The notes under the pieces: model-generated
Databases searched by the model: none
Seen by the model: the letters and a program-made list of their open reading frames with translations, nothing else
What the model was told of the DNA's origin: nothing
From: an uncultured Pelagibacteraceae bacterium
GTDB lineage: Bacteria > Pseudomonadota > Alphaproteobacteria > Pelagibacterales > Pelagibacteraceae
Length of the DNA: 64,000 nucleotides
Assembly: GCA_902587215.1 (NCBI GenBank)
Contig: CACIKJ010000001.1
Coordinates: 20,026 to 84,025 of the forward strand
Direction of reading: 5' to 3'
In this document: positions 17,058 through 43,157 of the stretch, one piece after another
How the letters are laid out: every line of letters starts with the position of its first letter
How positions within the stretch are numbered: the first letter of the stretch is position 1
Translations under genes and position numbers: made by a program

Positions 17058-18824
17058 ATGTTAGTTTCAGATAAAAATAAAGGATATAAAATAGACTTAA
17101 TCCTTATAAATTTATTAATTTTTATAATTTTTCCATTTAATTTAGCAAATCTTGAAAATTATAATGCTCAATTTAATATATTTTTATCTATTGTTTTAAT
17201 TGTAATAATATCAAGTACCTTTTCGATTATTTTTTTTTACATAATTAAAAAAATACTATCTAAATATGAAATCAATATTTTTCATTACTTTGAAAATTTT
17301 ATTAAATTTAGTTTATTATGGATTTTTTTAACTGGAATGTTTTTTCCAGTAACAGGTGATCACGATGCATTTCTAAATTTAAGTATAAGTTTGGGTGGAA
17401 AATTTGTAATTATTTTGAAATTTTTGGTTACTATTTTTCTATTTTTTATTTTAGTAAAAACTAAGTTAAGCAAAATTTTTTTTAGATTTGTTTTAATTTA
17501 CTTATTGATTAATCTTTTAATAATCTCAACCAATATTGATTTTACATTTAAAAAAGATAAAAAAATTGAAACAAAAATTAATCATTTTGGTGAAAAAAAT
17601 CTTATAGTTATAAGTTTTGATGGAATATCCGATATTAAGATGTTTGATGAAATAATTTCTAATCCCGAATTAAAAAAATCTCTTAAAGATTTTACATATT
17701 ATAAAAATGTTACATCGTCGTGGCCTGCTACTAATGGTTCAATTAATGCAGAATTAATTGGAAATAATTTAAATTTTGAGTCTCCTAATCCAGATTATAA
17801 TAATATTTTAAATGATAAAAAATTAGATGTATCAGTTTACTCTAGCTATGAACGTATGGTTTATAATAAGGAAAATACAATGCTCAAAGGAAGTTATAAG
17901 AATTATTCCAACTCCTATGAATTATCAAAATATATCGAAAGTTATTTTTTAGGTTCAATTGGTAGATGGGCAACATATTTATCTGTATCTTTAGTAAAGC
18001 CTATTTTTTATATTCCGATTTATAAGAAATTTATTAATTTAATAGCTTTCGACAATAAAAATCAAATTAATCCATTTGAAAAAATAAATACGCCAGCTTT
18101 TATTGATTTACTAGAGTATGATTTAATATTTGATGAGATTGTGATTGATAAAAACTTGAAAAATACAGTTAGAATGTACCATTTTATATTTAGTCATTGG
18201 CCAGTACAAGTAAACCGAAATTGTGAAGAAGTAAATTCTCTTACCAATATAATTTCTTATGAGCAAGAAGCAGAGGTTATTAAGTGTTTGGCAAAAAAAA
18301 TTAATAAAGTAATTAAAATACTTATAGATAAAAATATTTATGATAATTCAATGATTGTTTTTAAATCAGATCATGGCAAACCAAACTATGTTCAATTAAT
18401 TTACTCAACTAGTTTCTTCGATCTAATTAAAGAAAAAAAATATGATAAATTTTATAAAGATTATCCTTATAATTTGACAATAAACAAATCTTTTTATTGG
18501 GGATATGGCAGATACAAACCATTTATAATGATCAAGGATGCAAAAACCAAAAGAGATCAAATTAATTTTTCAGAAAAGCATGTATTTTTACATGATCTAA
18601 GTTCAACTTATTGTAATTTTCTCTATGAAGAAGAAGATTGCAAGAAATATCAAAGAAATAACCTTGCTTTAGATGACAGCTTATTTAAAGAATTCAATTA
18701 TGATATTTTTTTACCATTAAGAGGAAATTCATTTGCAGATCCAAAAGGTTACAAAAAGTATTCGATTTCAAATAAAGTACCTCTGATTGACTCTCTAATT
18801 GAAAATAATATTAGACTAAAATAA
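17058..18824 (+). CDS. Membrane-anchored sulfatase / alkaline-phosphatase superfamily protein
   Basis: Several N-terminal TM segments, then LIVISFDGISDIKMFDE...SSWPATNGSINAELIG and MIVFKSDHGK metal-site-like motif. Confidence 0.65.
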   Translation: MLVSDKNKGYKIDLILINLLIFIIFPFNLANLENYNAQFNIFLSIVLIVIISSTFSIIFFYIIKKILSKYEINIFHYFENFIKFSLLWIFLTGMFFPVTGDHDAFLNLSISLGGKFVIILKFLVTIFLFFILVKTKLSKIFFRFVLIYLLINLLIISTNIDFTFKKDKKIETKINHFGEKNLIVISFDGISDIKMFDEIISNPELKKSLKDFTYYKNVTSSWPATNGSINAELIGNNLNFESPNPDYNNILNDKKLDVSVYSSYERMVYNKENTMLKGSYKNYSNSYELSKYIESYFLGSIGRWATYLSVSLVKPIFYIPIYKKFINLIAFDNKNQINPFEKINTPAFIDLLEYDLIFDEIVIDKNLKNTVRMYHFIFSHWPVQVNRNCEEVNSLTNIISYEQEAEVIKCLAKKINKVIKILIDKNIYDNSMIVFKSDHGKPNYVQLIYSTSFFDLIKEKKYDKFYKDYPYNLTINKSFYWGYGRYKPFIMIKDAKTKRDQINFSEKHVFLHDLSSTYCNFLYEEEDCKKYQRNNLALDDSLFKEFNYDIFLPLRGNSFADPKGYKKYSISNKVPLIDSLIENNIRLK

Positions 18825-18903
18825 AATATAAAAATTGCCTTAAAATTTATAAGTCAAATACTTAATTGATTTATTAAATTTTATTTGATAATCAAATATT
18901 TGA

Positions 18904-19113
18904 ATGAAATTTATTTTAAAAATATTAATTTTTTATCTCGCTACAATAAATGCATCTTTTGCGTATTTAGACCCTGGCTCTGGGAGCGTTATTTTGCAGG
19001 CGATAATTGGTTTTATTGCTGCAATTTTTGCAACATTATCTTTTTACTGGGGTAAATTAAAATTATTTATTTTAAAGCTTTTTAAAAAAGAAAAAAAATC
19101 TGAAAAAGAATAG
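18904..19113 (+). CDS. Small membrane protein with signal/TM and AYLDPGSGSVILQ motif, unknown function
   Basis: 69 aa; hydrophobic N-terminus, YLDPGSGS, one further TM, YWGKLKLF, Lys-rich tail; directly follows sulfatase. Confidence 0.7.
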   Translation: MKFILKILIFYLATINASFAYLDPGSGSVILQAIIGFIAAIFATLSFYWGKLKLFILKLFKKEKKSEKE

Positions 19114-19133
19114 TTAAATTATAGATTAATTTA

Positions 19134-19958
19134 CTAATCAAAAAAAATTTTATTAATAAATAAATCTCTCAGCTCACTTTTATTTATAAACTTATAATAA
19201 TTATTCTCTTCTATGCTTAAATTTATATTTTTATAGTTTTCAAGCGAAACATCTTCACTTAACATTTTATTTAATAGAAATACTCTTATTGCAGGATCAA
19301 AAAAAGAGAACCAGATATTGTATAAGTCAGAAGTTTTTAATTTTAAGCTATCAGGAAAATAAATTTTTTTAAAGTTTTTTTCAAATCTTTCAATAATTTT
19401 TCCATTATCAATTTTCTTATCCATTAAAAAAAAAGTAGCACCTACGTTATTGTGATATTTTATACTATTTAAGGTTCCGTCAGCTCCTCTTACTTTATAC
19501 ATATATCCAGGATGTATGTGATAAAAATTTTTTTTTGTATCTAAAATACTTTTTAAAATATTGTTATTTGTGTTTAAAAAATTTTCTTCTTTCAAGTTTT
19601 TAAAATAATTTATATTCAGTTTATTGTTGATATCTGGATGTTTAGCAAATTCAATATTTTTTAATTTATAAATATTTTCAAACTTGTACATTTCAATTAA
19701 AAAATCTTTATCTAAATTAAAGTATTCTTCAATTTTTTTTACAAGTGACAAAATATTCTTTGATTTTAGATATCCTAAAGTATTTTTAAAAGTTGTGTAA
19801 TAACGAAGTTTTAAAAAAATTTCGTTAAAAATAATTTTATTATTTAAATAAATAACTTTATTTGCAAATAATTTTTTTTTAATTAATAAATATAAATATG
19901 CTCTTGCAATTGGATTTTCTGAAAAAATTAGAGTAATTTCTTTTACGTAATTAGACAT
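19134..19958 (-). CDS. Formyltransferase-fold protein (formyl_trans_N-like)
   Basis: HIHPGYMYKVRGADGTLNSIKYHNNVGATFFLMDKKIDNGKII resembles the HPSLLPxYRG...GVTxHxMxxxIDxGxII core. Confidence 0.6.
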   Translation of the reverse strand: MSNYVKEITLIFSENPIARAYLYLLIKKKLFANKVIYLNNKIIFNEIFLKLRYYTTFKNTLGYLKSKNILSLVKKIEEYFNLDKDFLIEMYKFENIYKLKNIEFAKHPDINNKLNINYFKNLKEENFLNTNNNILKSILDTKKNFYHIHPGYMYKVRGADGTLNSIKYHNNVGATFFLMDKKIDNGKIIERFEKNFKKIYFPDSLKLKTSDLYNIWFSFFDPAIRVFLLNKMLSEDVSLENYKNINLSIEENNYYKFINKSELRDLFINKIFFD

Positions 19959-19964
19959 TTTAAA

Positions 19965-20663
19965 TTAATTTTTTTTTTGCATTACATAAAATAATCTATC
20001 TTTATCGTAAAAATTTCCAAAATCATAATAGTTGTTATCTAATATAAAATAGTCTTTTTTAAGTTGATCAATTATTTTTATAAAATTTTCCCTTTTTTCG
20101 TACAAAGGATTATGAGATTCCACTATTAGAATTCCATTTTTATTTAATATATTATTAATTTTAATAAAATATTTGTTGCTATCTTCAATACCTTTGTCAA
20201 AAGTTGAGTGATTTGCTAAAGATAACACAACATCAAAATTTGATTTAAATTCATATTTAATAAAATCGTCAGCTATAAATCTTAAATTTTTAATATCAAA
20301 ATAATCTTTAACTTTATTTGCAACTTTAATTAATGTTGGATTATGATCTATACCCACTCCATTTGTAAAATTATTTTCAATTGATATCGGAATTGCACCA
20401 ATATTTGTTCCAATATCTAAAAAAGATTTACCATTTAAATATTCACTTAGTTTTAGCTTATTAATTCTCTTTTCAGTATTTCTAAGACCTTTGAGATTTA
20501 TACTTGGAATACTTTGATAAAAAAAACCTTCGCCATAATCATAAAATTCATTACTTTTTTCTTTTACAATATTTGTAACGCTTTCTCTTATAGGCTTATG
20601 TTTATCAAAACTTATTTTGTGTAAGAATAAGTTAAAGTTGCTTAAAAGTTTAGCTAATTTCAT
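19965..20663 (-). CDS. Class I SAM-dependent methyltransferase
   Basis: Motif I SFLDIGTNIGAIPISI, VGIDHNPTLIKVA, FDVVLSLANHSTFDKG, LIVESHNP. Confidence 0.8.
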   Translation of the reverse strand: MKLAKLLSNFNLFLHKISFDKHKPIRESVTNIVKEKSNEFYDYGEGFFYQSIPSINLKGLRNTEKRINKLKLSEYLNGKSFLDIGTNIGAIPISIENNFTNGVGIDHNPTLIKVANKVKDYFDIKNLRFIADDFIKYEFKSNFDVVLSLANHSTFDKGIEDSNKYFIKINNILNKNGILIVESHNPLYEKRENFIKIIDQLKKDYFILDNNYYDFGNFYDKDRLFYVMQKKN

Positions 20664-20818
20664 ATTTTACTATAGTGTAAATCTTGATAGTAAAAAAGCT
20701 TTTTTTCAAAAGATTTATAATGGCATAAAAGTTCAGATTTGATAATAATCATGCAAATTAAATAAAATAAATTTTACATTAATATGTTTTTCAAAAATAT
20801 TTATTTCAATACAAAAAA

Positions 20819-23143
20819 ATGTATAAGTTAAAAAATAAAGCAGAAAATTTAGATATACTAAAGAAAATATTTCAAAACAGTAAAGCTATAAATATACCAT
20901 CTTACTTTTATTTTAATTTAAAAGATCTAAAAAAAAATGAAGATAGGGTTGTAAAAAAAATTTATTTATTTAATAAAAAATACACATTAATTATAAGATC
21001 TGCATCTATAGATGAAGATAAATTAAATTTATCTAATGCAGGAAAATACGATTCAAAAATAGTAAATAAAAACACCCCAGATTATGAAATTAAAAAAATT
21101 TTAAGATCATTCATCAAGCAATTTAAATCTAATAAAGATAAAATCATTATTCAAAAAATGATTACAAATGTTGATTACTCTGGAGTAGTTTTTACAAGAG
21201 ATATTAACCACAATAGTCCATATTATGTAATTAACTATGATGATACTGGAAAAACAAATCTTATAACTTCAGGTGCAGAAAATCAAAGAATAAGGTCATT
21301 AGTAGTTTACAAAAATAAGATTAAAATAAAAAATAAATTTAAAAAACTTATTTCATATTTGGAAAAAATCCAAAAAAAAATTAAATTAGAAAGGTTAGAT
21401 ATTGAATTTGCTCAAAAAAAAAATACAATTTTTTTATTTCAAATTAGAAAGCTGCCTAAACAGAAATTTCAATCTAAATTAAATTTAAACTATAATTTTA
21501 GTGGAGCATTAACAAATATAGAAAAAAAAATTAAAAAATTAACATCAAAAAATCCAATGCTTATTGGAAATAAATCAGTTTTTAGCAACATGTCTGATTG
21601 GAACCCAGCAGAAATGATTGGTGACAAACCCTATCCCTTATCTGTAAGCATTTACAAAGAGCTTATTACTGATGACGTGTGGAGAAAACAAAGACTAATT
21701 TATGGTTATAAAGATGTATTTCCTAATCCATTAATGTTTACATTTGCCGGTTCTCCTTACATAGATTTAAGAGTAGATTTTATTAGTTTTTTACCTAAAA
21801 ATTTAAGTAACTCTGATTCTAATTTTATTGTAAATAAATATTTAGATAAAATCCAAAAAAATCCAGAAATACATGATAAGATAGAATTTAATTTAATTGA
21901 AACATGCTACTCATTTAACTCCAGAAAAAGATTAGAAAAAATATTTAATGGAAAATTACTTAAAAATTATTTATCTAGTCTAAAAAAACTCACTGAAAAT
22001 ATATTTAAAAACAATTTACTTAAAAAGGATAAAGAAAAAATAAATCTTTTTGAAAATCGACTAAATTTAATTTCAAAACAAAAAATAAACCCTATTCAAA
22101 AAATCTTTTATTTATCTGAAATAACAAAAAATTATGGAACACTTCCATTTGCAGGACTGGCAAGATGTGCGTTTATTTCACAAAGATTACTTTTGGACTT
22201 AAGATCAAATAAACTTATTAGTGATGAGGAGTTTGAAAATTTCTTTTCTTCAATACCCTCGGTAACCAATATATTTAATAATGATTATATTGATCTTAAA
22301 AACAAAAAAATTACTAAATCTAAGTTTATTAAAAAATATGGACATTTAAGGCCATCAACATATGATATAAATTCGTACAATTATCGAGAAGGTTTTGCTC
22401 AATATTTTTCAAAATTTAATAAAAAAAATAAAAAAAAGAGTAAGAAAATATCATTTTCTAAACATAGAATAATAAATAACTTATTAAAAAAAGACCTAAA
22501 AATTAATTATGAGCAATTTAAAAATTTTATAGTTGAGTCAATATATTTAAGGGAATATTCAAAATTAATTTTTACCAAAGGTGTAAATATGATTTTGGAA
22601 ACCTTACTAGAGCTAGGAAAAGAAATTAAAATATCAAGAAATGAATTAAGTTTTATTGAGTTTAAGAAAATACTTAATTTTCACTCAAACCTTGAGTCAG
22701 CTAAATTAAAAAAAACTCTCCAGGATGAAATAAAAAAAAATAAATATGAATTTGAAATGGCAAAATTAATTAAGTTGCCAGATGTAATTTTAAATGAAAA
22801 AAATATTTATGAATTTTATGAGAATTTGAGTAAACCAAACTTTATTACATTAAATTCTGTTATTGGGGAAACTTGTGAAGTAAAATCAAGAAACGTAAAT
22901 AAAATTAAAAATAAAATTGTATTAATTAAAAATGCTGACCCAGGTTATGATTTTATTTTTAATCATGAAATAAAAGGGCTCGTAACACAATTTGGTGGAG
23001 CTAATTCACATATGGCTATAAGATGCTTAGAACAAAATATACCTGCTGTTATAGGAGTCGGTAAAATTAGATATCAAGAAATTATTAAATCAAAACAATT
23101 AATTATTAATTGCGAAAAAAAACATATAAAATTAATAAAATGA
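20819..23143 (+). CDS. PEP-synthase-like kinase (PPDK_N ATP-grasp plus phosphohistidine swivel domain); proposed L-glutamine kinase (Cj1418-like)
   Basis: IIRSASIDEDKLNLSNAGKYDS, IIIQKMITNVDYSGVVFTRD, SDWNPAEMIGDKPYPLSVSIYKELITDDVWRKQR, swivel GGANSHMAIRCLEQNIPAVIGVG; neighbours match the Cj1417/Cj1416 types. Confidence 0.7.
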   Translation: MYKLKNKAENLDILKKIFQNSKAINIPSYFYFNLKDLKKNEDRVVKKIYLFNKKYTLIIRSASIDEDKLNLSNAGKYDSKIVNKNTPDYEIKKILRSFIKQFKSNKDKIIIQKMITNVDYSGVVFTRDINHNSPYYVINYDDTGKTNLITSGAENQRIRSLVVYKNKIKIKNKFKKLISYLEKIQKKIKLERLDIEFAQKKNTIFLFQIRKLPKQKFQSKLNLNYNFSGALTNIEKKIKKLTSKNPMLIGNKSVFSNMSDWNPAEMIGDKPYPLSVSIYKELITDDVWRKQRLIYGYKDVFPNPLMFTFAGSPYIDLRVDFISFLPKNLSNSDSNFIVNKYLDKIQKNPEIHDKIEFNLIETCYSFNSRKRLEKIFNGKLLKNYLSSLKKLTENIFKNNLLKKDKEKINLFENRLNLISKQKINPIQKIFYLSEITKNYGTLPFAGLARCAFISQRLLLDLRSNKLISDEEFENFFSSIPSVTNIFNNDYIDLKNKKITKSKFIKKYGHLRPSTYDINSYNYREGFAQYFSKFNKKNKKKSKKISFSKHRIINNLLKKDLKINYEQFKNFIVESIYLREYSKLIFTKGVNMILETLLELGKEIKISRNELSFIEFKKILNFHSNLESAKLKKTLQDEIKKNKYEFEMAKLIKLPDVILNEKNIYEFYENLSKPNFITLNSVIGETCEVKSRNVNKIKNKIVLIKNADPGYDFIFNHEIKGLVTQFGGANSHMAIRCLEQNIPAVIGVGKIRYQEIIKSKQLIINCEKKHIKLIK

Positions 23144-23736
23144 AAAAAATTGGACTATTATTGAGAGTAGATAAATTTGGAAAGTATAAGGAAACAAGAG
23201 ATAATATCGATACAAGATTTATTTATTTGTTTCAAAAACTTAATTTCGAACCAATTTTAATTCCAACAAGTATTAAAAATATTGAATTATTTATTGCAAA
23301 AATGTCTCTTGATGGAATTATACTTTCACCAGGAGGCAATCCATTAAAGAATGATATAAGAAAAAAAAATGAATTTAAAATCATTAAATATTGTATTAAA
23401 AAAAAAATTCCAATACTTGGAATATGTAGAGGCGCTCAAATAATTAATCTTTATTTTAAAGGCACATTAAAAAAAGTTAAAAATCATGTAAGAAAAAATC
23501 ATCAAATATTTGGCAACATAATTAAAAATAAAAAAATAAAAGTAAATTCATACCATGATTTAGGTTTTGATAAAAAAATGCTTGGACGTAACTTAATTGT
23601 AAATGCATTTAGCAAGGATCAGGTAATAGAATGTTTTTCTCATAAAAAGTTTAATATTTTGGGTTTAATGTGGCATCCAGAAAGAAATAAAAAAATCAAT
23701 CTTTTTGATATAAATATCATAAAATCATTTTTTTAA
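23140..23736 (+). CDS. Class I glutamine amidotransferase / C26 peptidase; proposed gamma-glutamyl-CDP-amidate hydrolase (Cj1417-like)
   Basis: LSPGGNPLKND, nucleophile elbow GICRGAQIINLYF, MWHPERN; ATGA overlap with upstream kinase (track start at 23110 is an upstream TTG). Confidence 0.72.
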   Translation: MKKIGLLLRVDKFGKYKETRDNIDTRFIYLFQKLNFEPILIPTSIKNIELFIAKMSLDGIILSPGGNPLKNDIRKKNEFKIIKYCIKKKIPILGICRGAQIINLYFKGTLKKVKNHVRKNHQIFGNIIKNKKIKVNSYHDLGFDKKMLGRNLIVNAFSKDQVIECFSHKKFNILGLMWHPERNKKINLFDINIIKSFF

Positions 23737-24458
23737 TGGAATTAGTAATTTTAGCAGCTGGTAAAGGAAGCAGAATATTTAAATCAATAAATAGAAATAA
23801 GTGTTTGATAAAAATTCATAAACAAACTCTTATCGAGAAAATTATTAATGATGCAGTCTCCTTAAAATTATTTACAAAAATAAATGTTGTTACTGGTTAT
23901 AGGAAAAATAAAATTATAGAAAAACTAAAAAATTATAAAGTACATTTTATTTTTAATAAAGATTTTAATAAAAAAGAAATGCTTCATTCTTTAAAGTTAG
24001 GTATTAAAAATTGTAAAAATGATACGTTAGTTACTTATTCAGATATTATTTTCTCAAAAAGAGTTTTTCAGGACATCAACTTAAACAAAAAAACGAATTA
24101 TATATTACCCGTATTAAGAAACTGGAAAAAAGTGTGGAAGATAAGAAAGAAAGAAATTATTGATGATTGTGAAAGTTTAAATTTTGATAGAAACTTTTAT
24201 CTTACGGATATAGGAAAAAAAATAATTAAAAATTTACCCAAAGGTCAATTTATGGGTATTTTTTTTATTCCAAAAAAAAAAATAAAAAAAACTATGAAGT
24301 ATATTGACCAAAATAAAAATAATAAAAAAATGCATACAACGAGTTTTATAGATTATCTAGTTACCAAAAAACAAAAAATAAAATGTATAGTTAAAAATTA
24401 TAATTGGTATGAATTTGATGACATTGAGGATTTAAAAAATTTCAAAAAACAGTATTAA
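23736..24458 (+). CDS. Nucleotidyltransferase (LicC/MobA-like); proposed CTP:phosphoglutamine cytidylyltransferase (Cj1416-like)
   Basis: LAAGKGSRIFKSINRNKCLIKI, NKDFNKKEMLHSLKLGI, LVTYSDIIFS; start overlaps stop of upstream gene. Confidence 0.72.
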   Translation: MELVILAAGKGSRIFKSINRNKCLIKIHKQTLIEKIINDAVSLKLFTKINVVTGYRKNKIIEKLKNYKVHFIFNKDFNKKEMLHSLKLGIKNCKNDTLVTYSDIIFSKRVFQDINLNKKTNYILPVLRNWKKVWKIRKKEIIDDCESLNFDRNFYLTDIGKKIIKNLPKGQFMGIFFIPKKKIKKTMKYIDQNKNNKKMHTTSFIDYLVTKKQKIKCIVKNYNWYEFDDIEDLKNFKKQY

Positions 24459-24966
24459 ACTTTTTGAAAAACAAATGAATTAATAAAGAAAATATAATAA
24501 ATATTGTTGTTAAAATAAAATAATTTTCTGAATTAATATATATAAATATAGCCCCAATTAGATAATTTAATATGTAATAATTTTTTCTATTAAATTTTAA
24601 AAGATTGGCAAGTTTTTCAAAAAAATAATAAGCAATTAATATATTTAGTATCATCCAGTAAAAACTTAAATATAATAAATCATAAGAAAAAAATTTAATT
24701 GTTTTTAAGCCAATAAATTGAGATGGCAATTCCATATCAGAAAATAAATGAATAATTAAGCCTAGACACATACCGGATATAAAATATAATTTTTTAAATT
24801 CATTGCTATTTTTTAATAATATAAAAAATAATAAAAAAATTATTACACTATGGGTCAAAATAGATCTATGACCTATATAATCTATTAAAAAAAAGTCAAA
24901 GTCTGGATAGGTCAATCCAACAACAATACCAAAAAAATAGTTAATATTAATTAATTTAGTTTTCAT
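24442..24966 (-). CDS. YdjM-like (DUF457-type) membrane-bound metal-dependent hydrolase
   Basis: GLTYPDFDF, GHRSILTHS, GLIIHLFSDM, several TM segments; ATG at 24966 preferred over TTG at 25011. Confidence 0.65.
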   Translation of the reverse strand: MKTKLININYFFGIVVGLTYPDFDFFLIDYIGHRSILTHSVIIFLLFFILLKNSNEFKKLYFISGMCLGLIIHLFSDMELPSQFIGLKTIKFFSYDLLYLSFYWMILNILIAYYFFEKLANLLKFNRKNYYILNYLIGAIFIYINSENYFILTTIFIIFSLLIHLFFKKFNTVF

Positions 24967-25005
24967 TTTATAAATTTTTTTTATAATTAAATTATTATAA
25001 AACCT

Positions 25006-26145
25006 ATGCAATTTAAAAAATTATATATTTTAAAAGAGTTATATAAATCCTTTTTTTCATTATTATTTTCTCAAATTAACAAAAAAAAAGATTTTGTTTT
25101 TTATTCAGAATCTTTATTTTATAAAAATTATTATTATGATTTATTAAATAAATTGAATAATAAAAAAAAATCAGTGTCAATTTTGAGTTCAGACATTAAT
25201 GAATATTTGGATCTTAAAAATAATAATTTCAATGTTTATTTCATAGGAACGGGTTTTTTTAGAATTTTAGTATTTAATATTATTAACTGCAATAATTTTT
25301 TAATGACTATGACGGATATAGGTAACAATCTAAATAAATCAAAATTTTGTGACAAATACATTTATTTTTTTCATTGCATGCATAGTACTCATAAAATGTA
25401 TACTGAAAAAGCTTTTGATAATTATAATGTTATTTTTACAATAGGTCAGTTTCAAACAAAAGAAATAATCAAAAATGAAAATGTTAATAAACTCAATAAA
25501 AAGAAAATATTTGAAACCGGTTATTTTTATTTAGATTTCCTTGAAAAAAATTGTAATAAAAAAATAAGCGATAAAAAAAATATTTTATTTGCTCCAAGTT
25601 GGAATTATGACCAAAATAATTTATTTAACAATCATGGATATAATATTATAGACAAACTGTTAAAAAGTAACTTTGAATTAACTTTTAGACCTCACCCTGA
25701 AATTATCAAAAGAAATAAGAATGAATATATTAAAATAATTAATCAATTCAAAAATAATAATTCTTTTAAAATAGATAATCATCATTCTAATATTTACTCG
25801 ATGGAAAAAGCCTCACTTTTGATTACCGATAACTCCTCAATTGCTGTTGAATACTCGTTTGTATTTTATAGACCTGTAATTTTTATTGATTACAAAGATA
25901 AAATACATAATAAAAATTACGAGAAAATAAGTAATTTTACTTTCGAGGGTGATTTTAAAAACAAAATTGGGATTTCTATTTCTAATGATCAAATAGATAA
26001 TTTAGGACAAATTTGCGAACAATCAATTTCAAATTCATTTTCAAAAAGAAATGAGATCGACAAAATAAAAAAAGAATACCTATCAAACATCTCAAACTCT
26101 GTTGATACAGCTTGTAAAATATTAACTGATGTGACATTCTCATAA
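25006..26145 (+). CDS. CDP-glycerol glycerophosphotransferase-like (TagB/TagF-type) transferase
   Basis: YIYFFHCMHSTHKMYTEKAFDNYN, IFETGYFYLDFL, ILFAPSWN, FRPHPE, LITDNSSIAVEYSFVFYRPVIFID. Confidence 0.72.
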   Translation: MQFKKLYILKELYKSFFSLLFSQINKKKDFVFYSESLFYKNYYYDLLNKLNNKKKSVSILSSDINEYLDLKNNNFNVYFIGTGFFRILVFNIINCNNFLMTMTDIGNNLNKSKFCDKYIYFFHCMHSTHKMYTEKAFDNYNVIFTIGQFQTKEIIKNENVNKLNKKKIFETGYFYLDFLEKNCNKKISDKKNILFAPSWNYDQNNLFNNHGYNIIDKLLKSNFELTFRPHPEIIKRNKNEYIKIINQFKNNNSFKIDNHHSNIYSMEKASLLITDNSSIAVEYSFVFYRPVIFIDYKDKIHNKNYEKISNFTFEGDFKNKIGISISNDQIDNLGQICEQSISNSFSKRNEIDKIKKEYLSNISNSVDTACKILTDVTFS

Positions 26146-26216: not shown

Positions 26217-26302
26217 GCCCTCGTGGTGAAATTGGTAGACACAAAGGACTTAAAATCCTTGCCCATTTGGGAGTGCCAGTTCGAGTCTGGCCGAGGGCAC
26301 CA
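26217..26302 (+). tRNA. tRNA-Leu (UAA), CCA encoded
   Basis: Acceptor GCCCTCG/CGAGGGC, long variable arm, anticodon TAA, GTTCGAGTC T-arm, 3' ACCA. Confidence 0.95.
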
Positions 26303-43038: not shown

Positions 43039-43066
43039 TTGACAAATCCAATTTTTTAAGTATTTT
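43039..43066 (+). promoter_or_regulatory. Candidate sigma70 promoter for str operon
   Basis: TTGACA (43039-43044), 16-nt spacer, TATTTT (43061-43066). Confidence 0.35.
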
Positions 43067-43081
43067 GGCGATGTTTTTTGG

Positions 43082-43142
43082 TTGGAATGTAGTACTAAGT
43101 ACTAAACGCTGCCAAACTAGCCGCTGAAAAGTTTCATTCCAA
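43082..43142 (+). promoter_or_regulatory. Structured 5' leader candidate upstream of rpsL
   Basis: Closing stem TTGGAATG (43082-43089)/CATTCCAA (43135-43142), internal hairpin TAGTA-CTAAG-TACTA (43090-43104). Confidence 0.5.
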
Positions 43143-43157
43143 AAAAACAATAATATT

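Follow-up and report, generated by a model that had tools for sequence, protein, structure and literature searches.

A putative CDP-phosphoramidate gene trio with TagF-type accessory genes in a variable island of a SAR11 genome

Phosphorus-nitrogen (P-N) bonds are rare in biology, and the enzymology of phosphoramidate in capsules comes from Campylobacter. The window analysed here, 64,000 nucleotides on contig C1 of a SAR11 metagenome-assembled genome (MAG; G000, 721 kb, 60% complete), contains at 20819-24458 three co-directional open reading frames (ORFs) on the + strand for homologues of a glutamine kinase, a glutamyl hydrolase and a nucleotidyltransferase, hereafter the trio. Does the P-N chemistry of the Campylobacter capsule also occur in a marine oligotroph, and which enzyme would attach the group? 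Together with its neighbours the trio forms an island predicted to code for making and using activated phosphoramidate. The trio itself appears to represent the known pathway, here accompanied by a second accessory set, in which the putative TagF-type attachment enzymes would be the new part.

The trio and its counterparts in Campylobacterota

In Campylobacter jejuni, Cj1415-Cj1418 produce 3'-phospho-CDP-phosphoramidate from glutamine, ATP and CTP (PMC11800397; for the enzymology see also PMC6429109), and the methyl-phosphoramidate group serves as a phage receptor (PMC8949473). The reference set for this pathway was obtained by an NF045546 search over 398 genomes of the class of the Helicobacteraceae genome G298, with 58 passing the cut-off. 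The locus used for comparison, L174, is taken as a bona fide methyl-phosphoramidate locus because a kinase (NF004508, 1173 bits), a hydrolase (NF045546, 328 bits), an APS-kinase-family protein and an O-methyl phosphoramidate transferase (NF058596) share one cluster.

A preliminary description of the window had reported three overlapping genes with the domains, order and approximate sizes of the Campylobacter trio, and this is borne out: the ORFs, their overlaps and the motifs GICRGAQ, HPER and GGANSHMAIR were all recovered, and order, sizes and overlaps agree with L174. The kinase and hydrolase genes are joined by an ATGA at 23140-23143 (the ATG at 23140 is the likely hydrolase start, the mechanically called ORF opening at TTG 23110), and a TAATG at 23734-23738 joins the hydrolase gene to that of the nucleotidyltransferase. 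Pfam assigns PPDK_N (ATP-grasp) and PEP-utilizers mobile domains to the kinase, a class I GATase/Peptidase_C26 domain to the hydrolase and a MobA-like NTP transferase domain to the third protein.

Against NF004508, the family that also takes in the L174 kinase, the kinase of this locus scores 760.6 bits and thereby passes the curated cut-off of 501. It is 37.7% identical to the L174 kinase across 761 aligned residues, the swivel histidine His731 in GGANSHMAIR aligns with His737, and the DWNPAEMIG (DWNPAE) and ADPG segments are retained. The best NCBIfam model of the hydrolase is NF045546 (133.3 bits, E 1.1e-38), followed by a model at 55 bits. With NF045546 the trio hydrolases of six SAR11 genomes reach 97-152 bits, and no other amidotransferase of those genomes exceeds 46. 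Identity to the L174 hydrolase is 37.2% over 183 residues; GICRGAQ and HPER align, so that the catalytic Cys, His and Glu are kept. On the same score gap an assignment as PuuD or as an anthranilate-type amidotransferase was rejected. The amidotransferase tree sets the hydrolase apart at 53% support only. The nucleotidyltransferase gives the weakest match of the three (26.9% identity over 234 residues; 88.9 bits against the profile of the Campylobacter trio), has LicC as its single match in the PDB (E 4e-5) and resembles MobA-like and LicC-like enzymes weakly. In a tree that took in no LicC or PntC references it clusters with the SAR11 trio members of loci L036 and L047 (support 98), inside the trio set.

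These assignments suggest that the trio probably carries out the synthesis of CDP-phosphoramidate. Following phosphorylation of glutamine by the kinase, the nucleotidyltransferase would use CTP to attach CMP to N-phosphoglutamine; the amidotransferase-type hydrolase would then cleave glutamate off the resulting gamma-glutamyl-CDP-amidate to leave CDP-phosphoramidate. The preliminary description had named this pathway; its kinase and hydrolase steps are consistent with the family scores, and the order and conservation of the genes speak for it, the nucleotidyltransferase step being the most tentative.

The conservation of the trio was followed in 120 kinase loci (three of them duplicates) drawn from SAR11, plasmids, a genome-contig scan (80 kept of at least 557 relatives) and Campylobacterota. 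Hydrolase and nucleotidyltransferase genes stand beside the kinase gene in 113 of the 120 loci, from many phyla, and 18 of the 19 other Pelagibacterales kinase loci keep both next to it, a check that the preliminary description had suggested; the association is therefore not due to chance. Within the SAR11 order the kinase is over the cut-off in 17 of 298 genomes, with strong partial matches in 5 more (about 7%), and in the kinase tree the kinase of this locus falls with those of SAR11 (support 100), in keeping with the placement of the genome in this order. A conserved trio of the CDP-phosphoramidate type in a subset of SAR11 genomes is thus well supported as a reading of these sequences. In one large clade (L031, L054, L061 and others) the kinases carry an N-terminal extension of ~180-200 residues that resembles a nucleotidyltransferase domain.

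A TagF-type accessory set at a tRNA-Leu hotspot

The preliminary description had confined the unit to three genes, which proved too narrow, since an accessory set of five further genes was found and the whole is packed into 9.1 kb (17058-26145; Table 1).

Table 1. Features of the island, with positions in the window
Feature	Position	Strand	Remarks
Membrane protein, alkaline-phosphatase/sulfatase-fold domain, phosphotransferase-like	17058..18824	+	invariant Thr225
69-aa membrane protein, DPGSGS family	18904..19113	+	YLDPGSGS motif
Formyltransferase-fold protein	19134..19958	-	invariant His-x-His instead of usual Asn-x-His
Class I S-adenosylmethionine-dependent methyltransferase	19965..20663	-	PF13847, 47.9 bits; divergent from kinase gene
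L-glutamine kinase homologue, Cj1418 type	20819..23143	+	774 aa; ATP-grasp and phosphohistidine swivel, swivel His731
Gamma-glutamyl-CDP-amidate hydrolase-like class I amidotransferase, Cj1417 type	23140..23736	+	198 aa; best NCBIfam model NF045546
LicC/Cj1416-like nucleotidyltransferase	23736..24458	+	240 aa; likely CTP:phosphoglutamine cytidylyltransferase
TagF-like (PF04464 superfamily) GT-B transferase	25006..26145	+	AlphaFold/Foldseek; proposed phosphoramidate transferase
tRNA-Leu(taa)	26217..26302	+	right border of variable island, adjoins nadK

The island lies at a tRNA-Leu/nadK hotspot whose content varies from one SAR11 genome to another, and the flanking gene order agrees with that seen elsewhere in the genus. 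Ten further genomes of the genus were compared. Nine of them have one flank formed by the genes up to g15622 (and azlCD, if they carry it) and the other by tRNA-Leu(taa)-nadK, the flanks being 1.4 to 13 kb apart; for the tenth, the compared stretch takes in no more than tRNA-Leu and nadK. The trio is missing from this site in all ten, and in the present genome the trio and its partner genes occupy it.

Compared with the C. jejuni pathway, the trio of the present locus has neither an adjoining Cj1415-type kinase nor a DUF2972/NF058596 transferase: no other protein of the island was named NF058596 or DUF2972 by Pfam or NCBIfam, as would be expected of a Cj1421/Cj1422-type transferase, and among the kinase loci the protein cluster with the NF058596 member occurs in those of Campylobacterota only. 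The methyltransferase of the island likewise belongs to a cluster other than that of C. jejuni, and TagF-like, formyltransferase-fold, membrane phosphotransferase-like and DPGSGS proteins are present instead. The locus thus belongs to a second locus type, as does its relative L036 in genome G022.

The AlphaFold model of the TagF-like protein (mean predicted local distance difference test, pLDDT, 91.4) has TagF (3l7m) as its best Foldseek match in the PDB (E 7.9e-11, TM about 0.6), followed by UDP-N-acetylglucosamine 2-epimerases and other GT-B proteins, including the CMP-bound capsule polymerase 8a0c. A profile of the family matches TagF and TarL sequences; the protein of this locus stays under the PF04464 gathering cut-off, which its homologues in L061, L075 and L094 exceed. 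It shares with the wall teichoic acid polymerases TagF and TarL the fold and the RPH and D-x-S segments but is short and single-domain, belongs to a Gram-negative oligotroph and sits with a phosphoramidate trio. TagF enzymes transfer alditol phosphate from a CDP donor, so that the use of CDP-phosphoramidate by a TagF-like enzyme would be chemically close. It is proposed that the TagF-like transferase moves phosphoramidate from CDP-phosphoramidate to a hydroxyl group of a surface glycan or a lipid-linked precursor, with release of CMP. Such direct transfer is a tentative assignment, to which we give somewhat less than an even chance.

Across the loci the remaining accessory proteins occur wholly or mostly together with the TagF-like gene. 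The methyltransferase family (7 loci) is confined to loci with a TagF-like gene, the membrane phosphotransferase-like family (9 loci) has one in every case, and the formyltransferase-fold family occurs mostly in TagF-type loci; the DPGSGS protein is found in nine of them, including this one, and in L058. Two pattern matches to the DPGSGS motif, in L123 and L134, are sequences of a different kind. In the membrane phosphotransferase-like family D188, T225, D438 and H439 are invariant; PF00884 stays just under its cut-off here and is over it in L061 and L062. The formyltransferase-fold model (pLDDT 81) has sugar N-formyltransferases as its best matches, and the profile of its family hits such enzymes too. 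H147, H149 and D184 are invariant in the family, so that H-x-H stands in place of the N-I-H of the sugar formyltransferase 6v2t. Together with the methyltransferase and the Thr-nucleophile membrane protein, this protein may serve to tailor or move either the group or its acceptor.

Two locus types and the alternatives to direct transfer

Other SAR11 trio loci (for example L032, L035 and L038) have the same trio and the same kinase clade as the present one; unlike this locus and L036, which lack both, they carry a homologue of APS kinase and in some cases sugar-biosynthesis genes of the NeuB type. Near the trio, an APS-kinase homologue is found in 11 of 19 SAR11 loci and in 43 of all 120; a TagF-like gene occurs in 29 of the 120, and no locus has both. 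With a broader TagF-like profile applied within 8 kb, matches appear in 40 of 74 loci without an APS-kinase homologue versus 6 of 43 with one. ATP sulfurylase (PF01747, over cut-off) and CysD were not found in 15 trio-bearing SAR11 genomes examined, including the present one, so the APS-kinase homologues of SAR11 should not serve the synthesis of 3'-phosphoadenosine 5'-phosphosulfate, and a function of the Cj1415 (CDP-phosphoramidate kinase) type is supported. The former role is disfavoured with the caveat that in one genome (G219) a second APS-kinase-type gene adjoins a weak match to PF01747. Glutamine kinase and APS-kinase domain are fused in six loci of other phyla (L100, L107, L112, L113, L115, L122), the MAGs in question being labelled Gammaproteobacteria, Bryobacteraceae and Acidobacteriaceae. 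In a further case, a protein adjoining the trio of an Azospirillum locus (L053, 6627-9143) has a C-terminal APS-kinase domain after a region that is weakly sulfotransferase-like.

The kinases of this locus and of L036 lie inside a SAR11 clade rich in carriers of the APS-kinase homologue, yet both loci have the accessory genes of the TagF type, which makes the pair an instructive case for the split. A second widespread branch may be proposed for SAR11 and several other phyla, with direct TagF-like transfer from CDP-phosphoramidate in place of 3'-phosphorylation; methyl-, formyl-fold and membrane phosphotransferase-like proteins of its own would do the tailoring. This possibility falls just short of being probable.

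Several results weigh against the pathway and the attachment step proposed here. At 133 bits the hydrolase lies under the curated NF045546 cut-off of 250, which none of the SAR11 homologues scored reaches. The nucleotidyltransferase is divergent and assigned weakly, and it is not the best of its genome against the Campylobacter profile, as a helix-turn-helix (HTH)-fused nucleotidyltransferase on contig C24 reaches 130.2 bits. The end of C24 also holds a truncated APS-kinase homologue, unlinked to the trio, and a 3'-phosphorylated donor may therefore still be made in this organism. With regard to the two locus types, the association of TagF-like gene and APS-kinase homologue gives a Fisher p of 2.8e-7, which is not taken as proof because the loci share ancestry. 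On the kinase tree the split takes only 3 changes and no more than 2 phylogenetically independent pairs are informative (p 0.5), so that common descent accounts for much of the exclusion.

As to the trio, a kinase related to phosphoenolpyruvate (PEP) synthase or rifampin phosphotransferase and having an unrelated role would share the ATP-grasp and swivel domains, but the next-best NCBIfam scores are at most 32 bits for PEP synthase models and 23 bits for rifampin phosphotransferase, and the Pfam domain scan found no PEP-binding C-terminal domain. The check suggested in the preliminary description thus places the kinase with neither family, both assignments are rejected by score, and such a role is scarcely credible. 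If the product of the trio were instead some other N-phosphorylated or CDP-activated compound, made from another amide or amine, this would fit the low identity of the nucleotidyltransferase, the score of the hydrolase and the distance of the SAR11 clade. Nearly all loci nevertheless keep a hydrolase-like enzyme next to the kinase, the aligned ones having the catalytic Cys, His and Glu, and the removal of a glutamyl group speaks for glutamine as donor of the amide, which renders this alternative quite improbable.

Two further alternatives concern the fate of the activated group. The TagF-like protein could act as an ordinary phosphotransferase on CDP-glycerol or a CDP-alditol and build a teichoic-acid-like polymer, another enzyme adding the phosphoramidate. 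In C. jejuni a TagF-like domain transfers alditol phosphate using CDP-glycerol (PMC11924219), and capsule loci can combine such a domain with methyl-phosphoramidate genes (PMC11924219; PMC8949473). However, a TagD-type glycerol-3-phosphate cytidylyltransferase over the cut-off was found neither in this genome nor in G022, none is seen in the island, and the TagF-like gene directly follows the trio in many loci, so that this explanation is rather unlikely. The pathway could also run as in C. jejuni, with the homologue on C24 performing the 3'-phosphorylation, an unlinked transferase attaching the group and the TagF-like gene building something else; in other SAR11 loci the APS-kinase gene does adjoin the trio. 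Against this, G022, which is 99% complete and has the same accessory set, lacks a full-length Cj1415-type kinase, as does the neighbourhood of the present trio, and an APS-kinase homologue is absent from every strong TagF-type locus in the set of 120. An arrangement of this kind is unlikely, and the case of G022 speaks for direct transfer by the TagF-like enzyme.

Phosphorus context and further observations

The preliminary description had called a phosphorus-spending surface modification surprising in a phosphorus-limited oligotroph. This is tempered by the report of phosphonate pathways in 18% of SAR11 cells, where, as in Prochlorococcus, such pathways are linked to glycans of the surface (PMC8931226); phosphorus-rich surface chemistry therefore has a precedent in the group. 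As in the pepM phosphonate clusters of these organisms, unusual phosphorus groups would be placed on the surface glycans of oligotrophs, although by P-N rather than phosphorus-carbon (P-C) chemistry and with other enzymes. A search of a limited collection of papers, pairing phosphoramidate with SAR11 or Prochlorococcus, returned nothing on this topic.

The gene content suggests that the P-N chemistry of the Campylobacter capsule may also decorate cells that rank among the most abundant in the ocean, perhaps on a surface glycan. If so, activated phosphoramidate would be made in some of the most abundant ocean bacteria and in many other phyla, by genes in surface-glycan loci or variable islands, where pressure from phages and grazers is expected, and an unrecorded form of organic phosphorus would be added to the marine phosphorus cycle. 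A CDP-phosphoramidate-dependent TagF-like transferase would be predicted as well.

Outside SAR11, a Prochlorococcus single-cell genome (L103) carries the trio and, after it, a TagF-like gene of PF04464. On C24 of the present MAG, the HTH-fused nucleotidyltransferase gene is followed by phnD/phnC/phnE-like transporter genes and then by the truncated APS-kinase homologue at the contig end (L189, 4991-9064), possibly a second P-N or P-C tailoring locus. In the island, a small integral membrane protein matching no Pfam or NCBIfam family is encoded between the nucleotidyltransferase and TagF-like genes (24442-25011, - strand). Elsewhere in the window, RF01823 (rpsL small RNA family) matches at 43065-43149 on the + strand.

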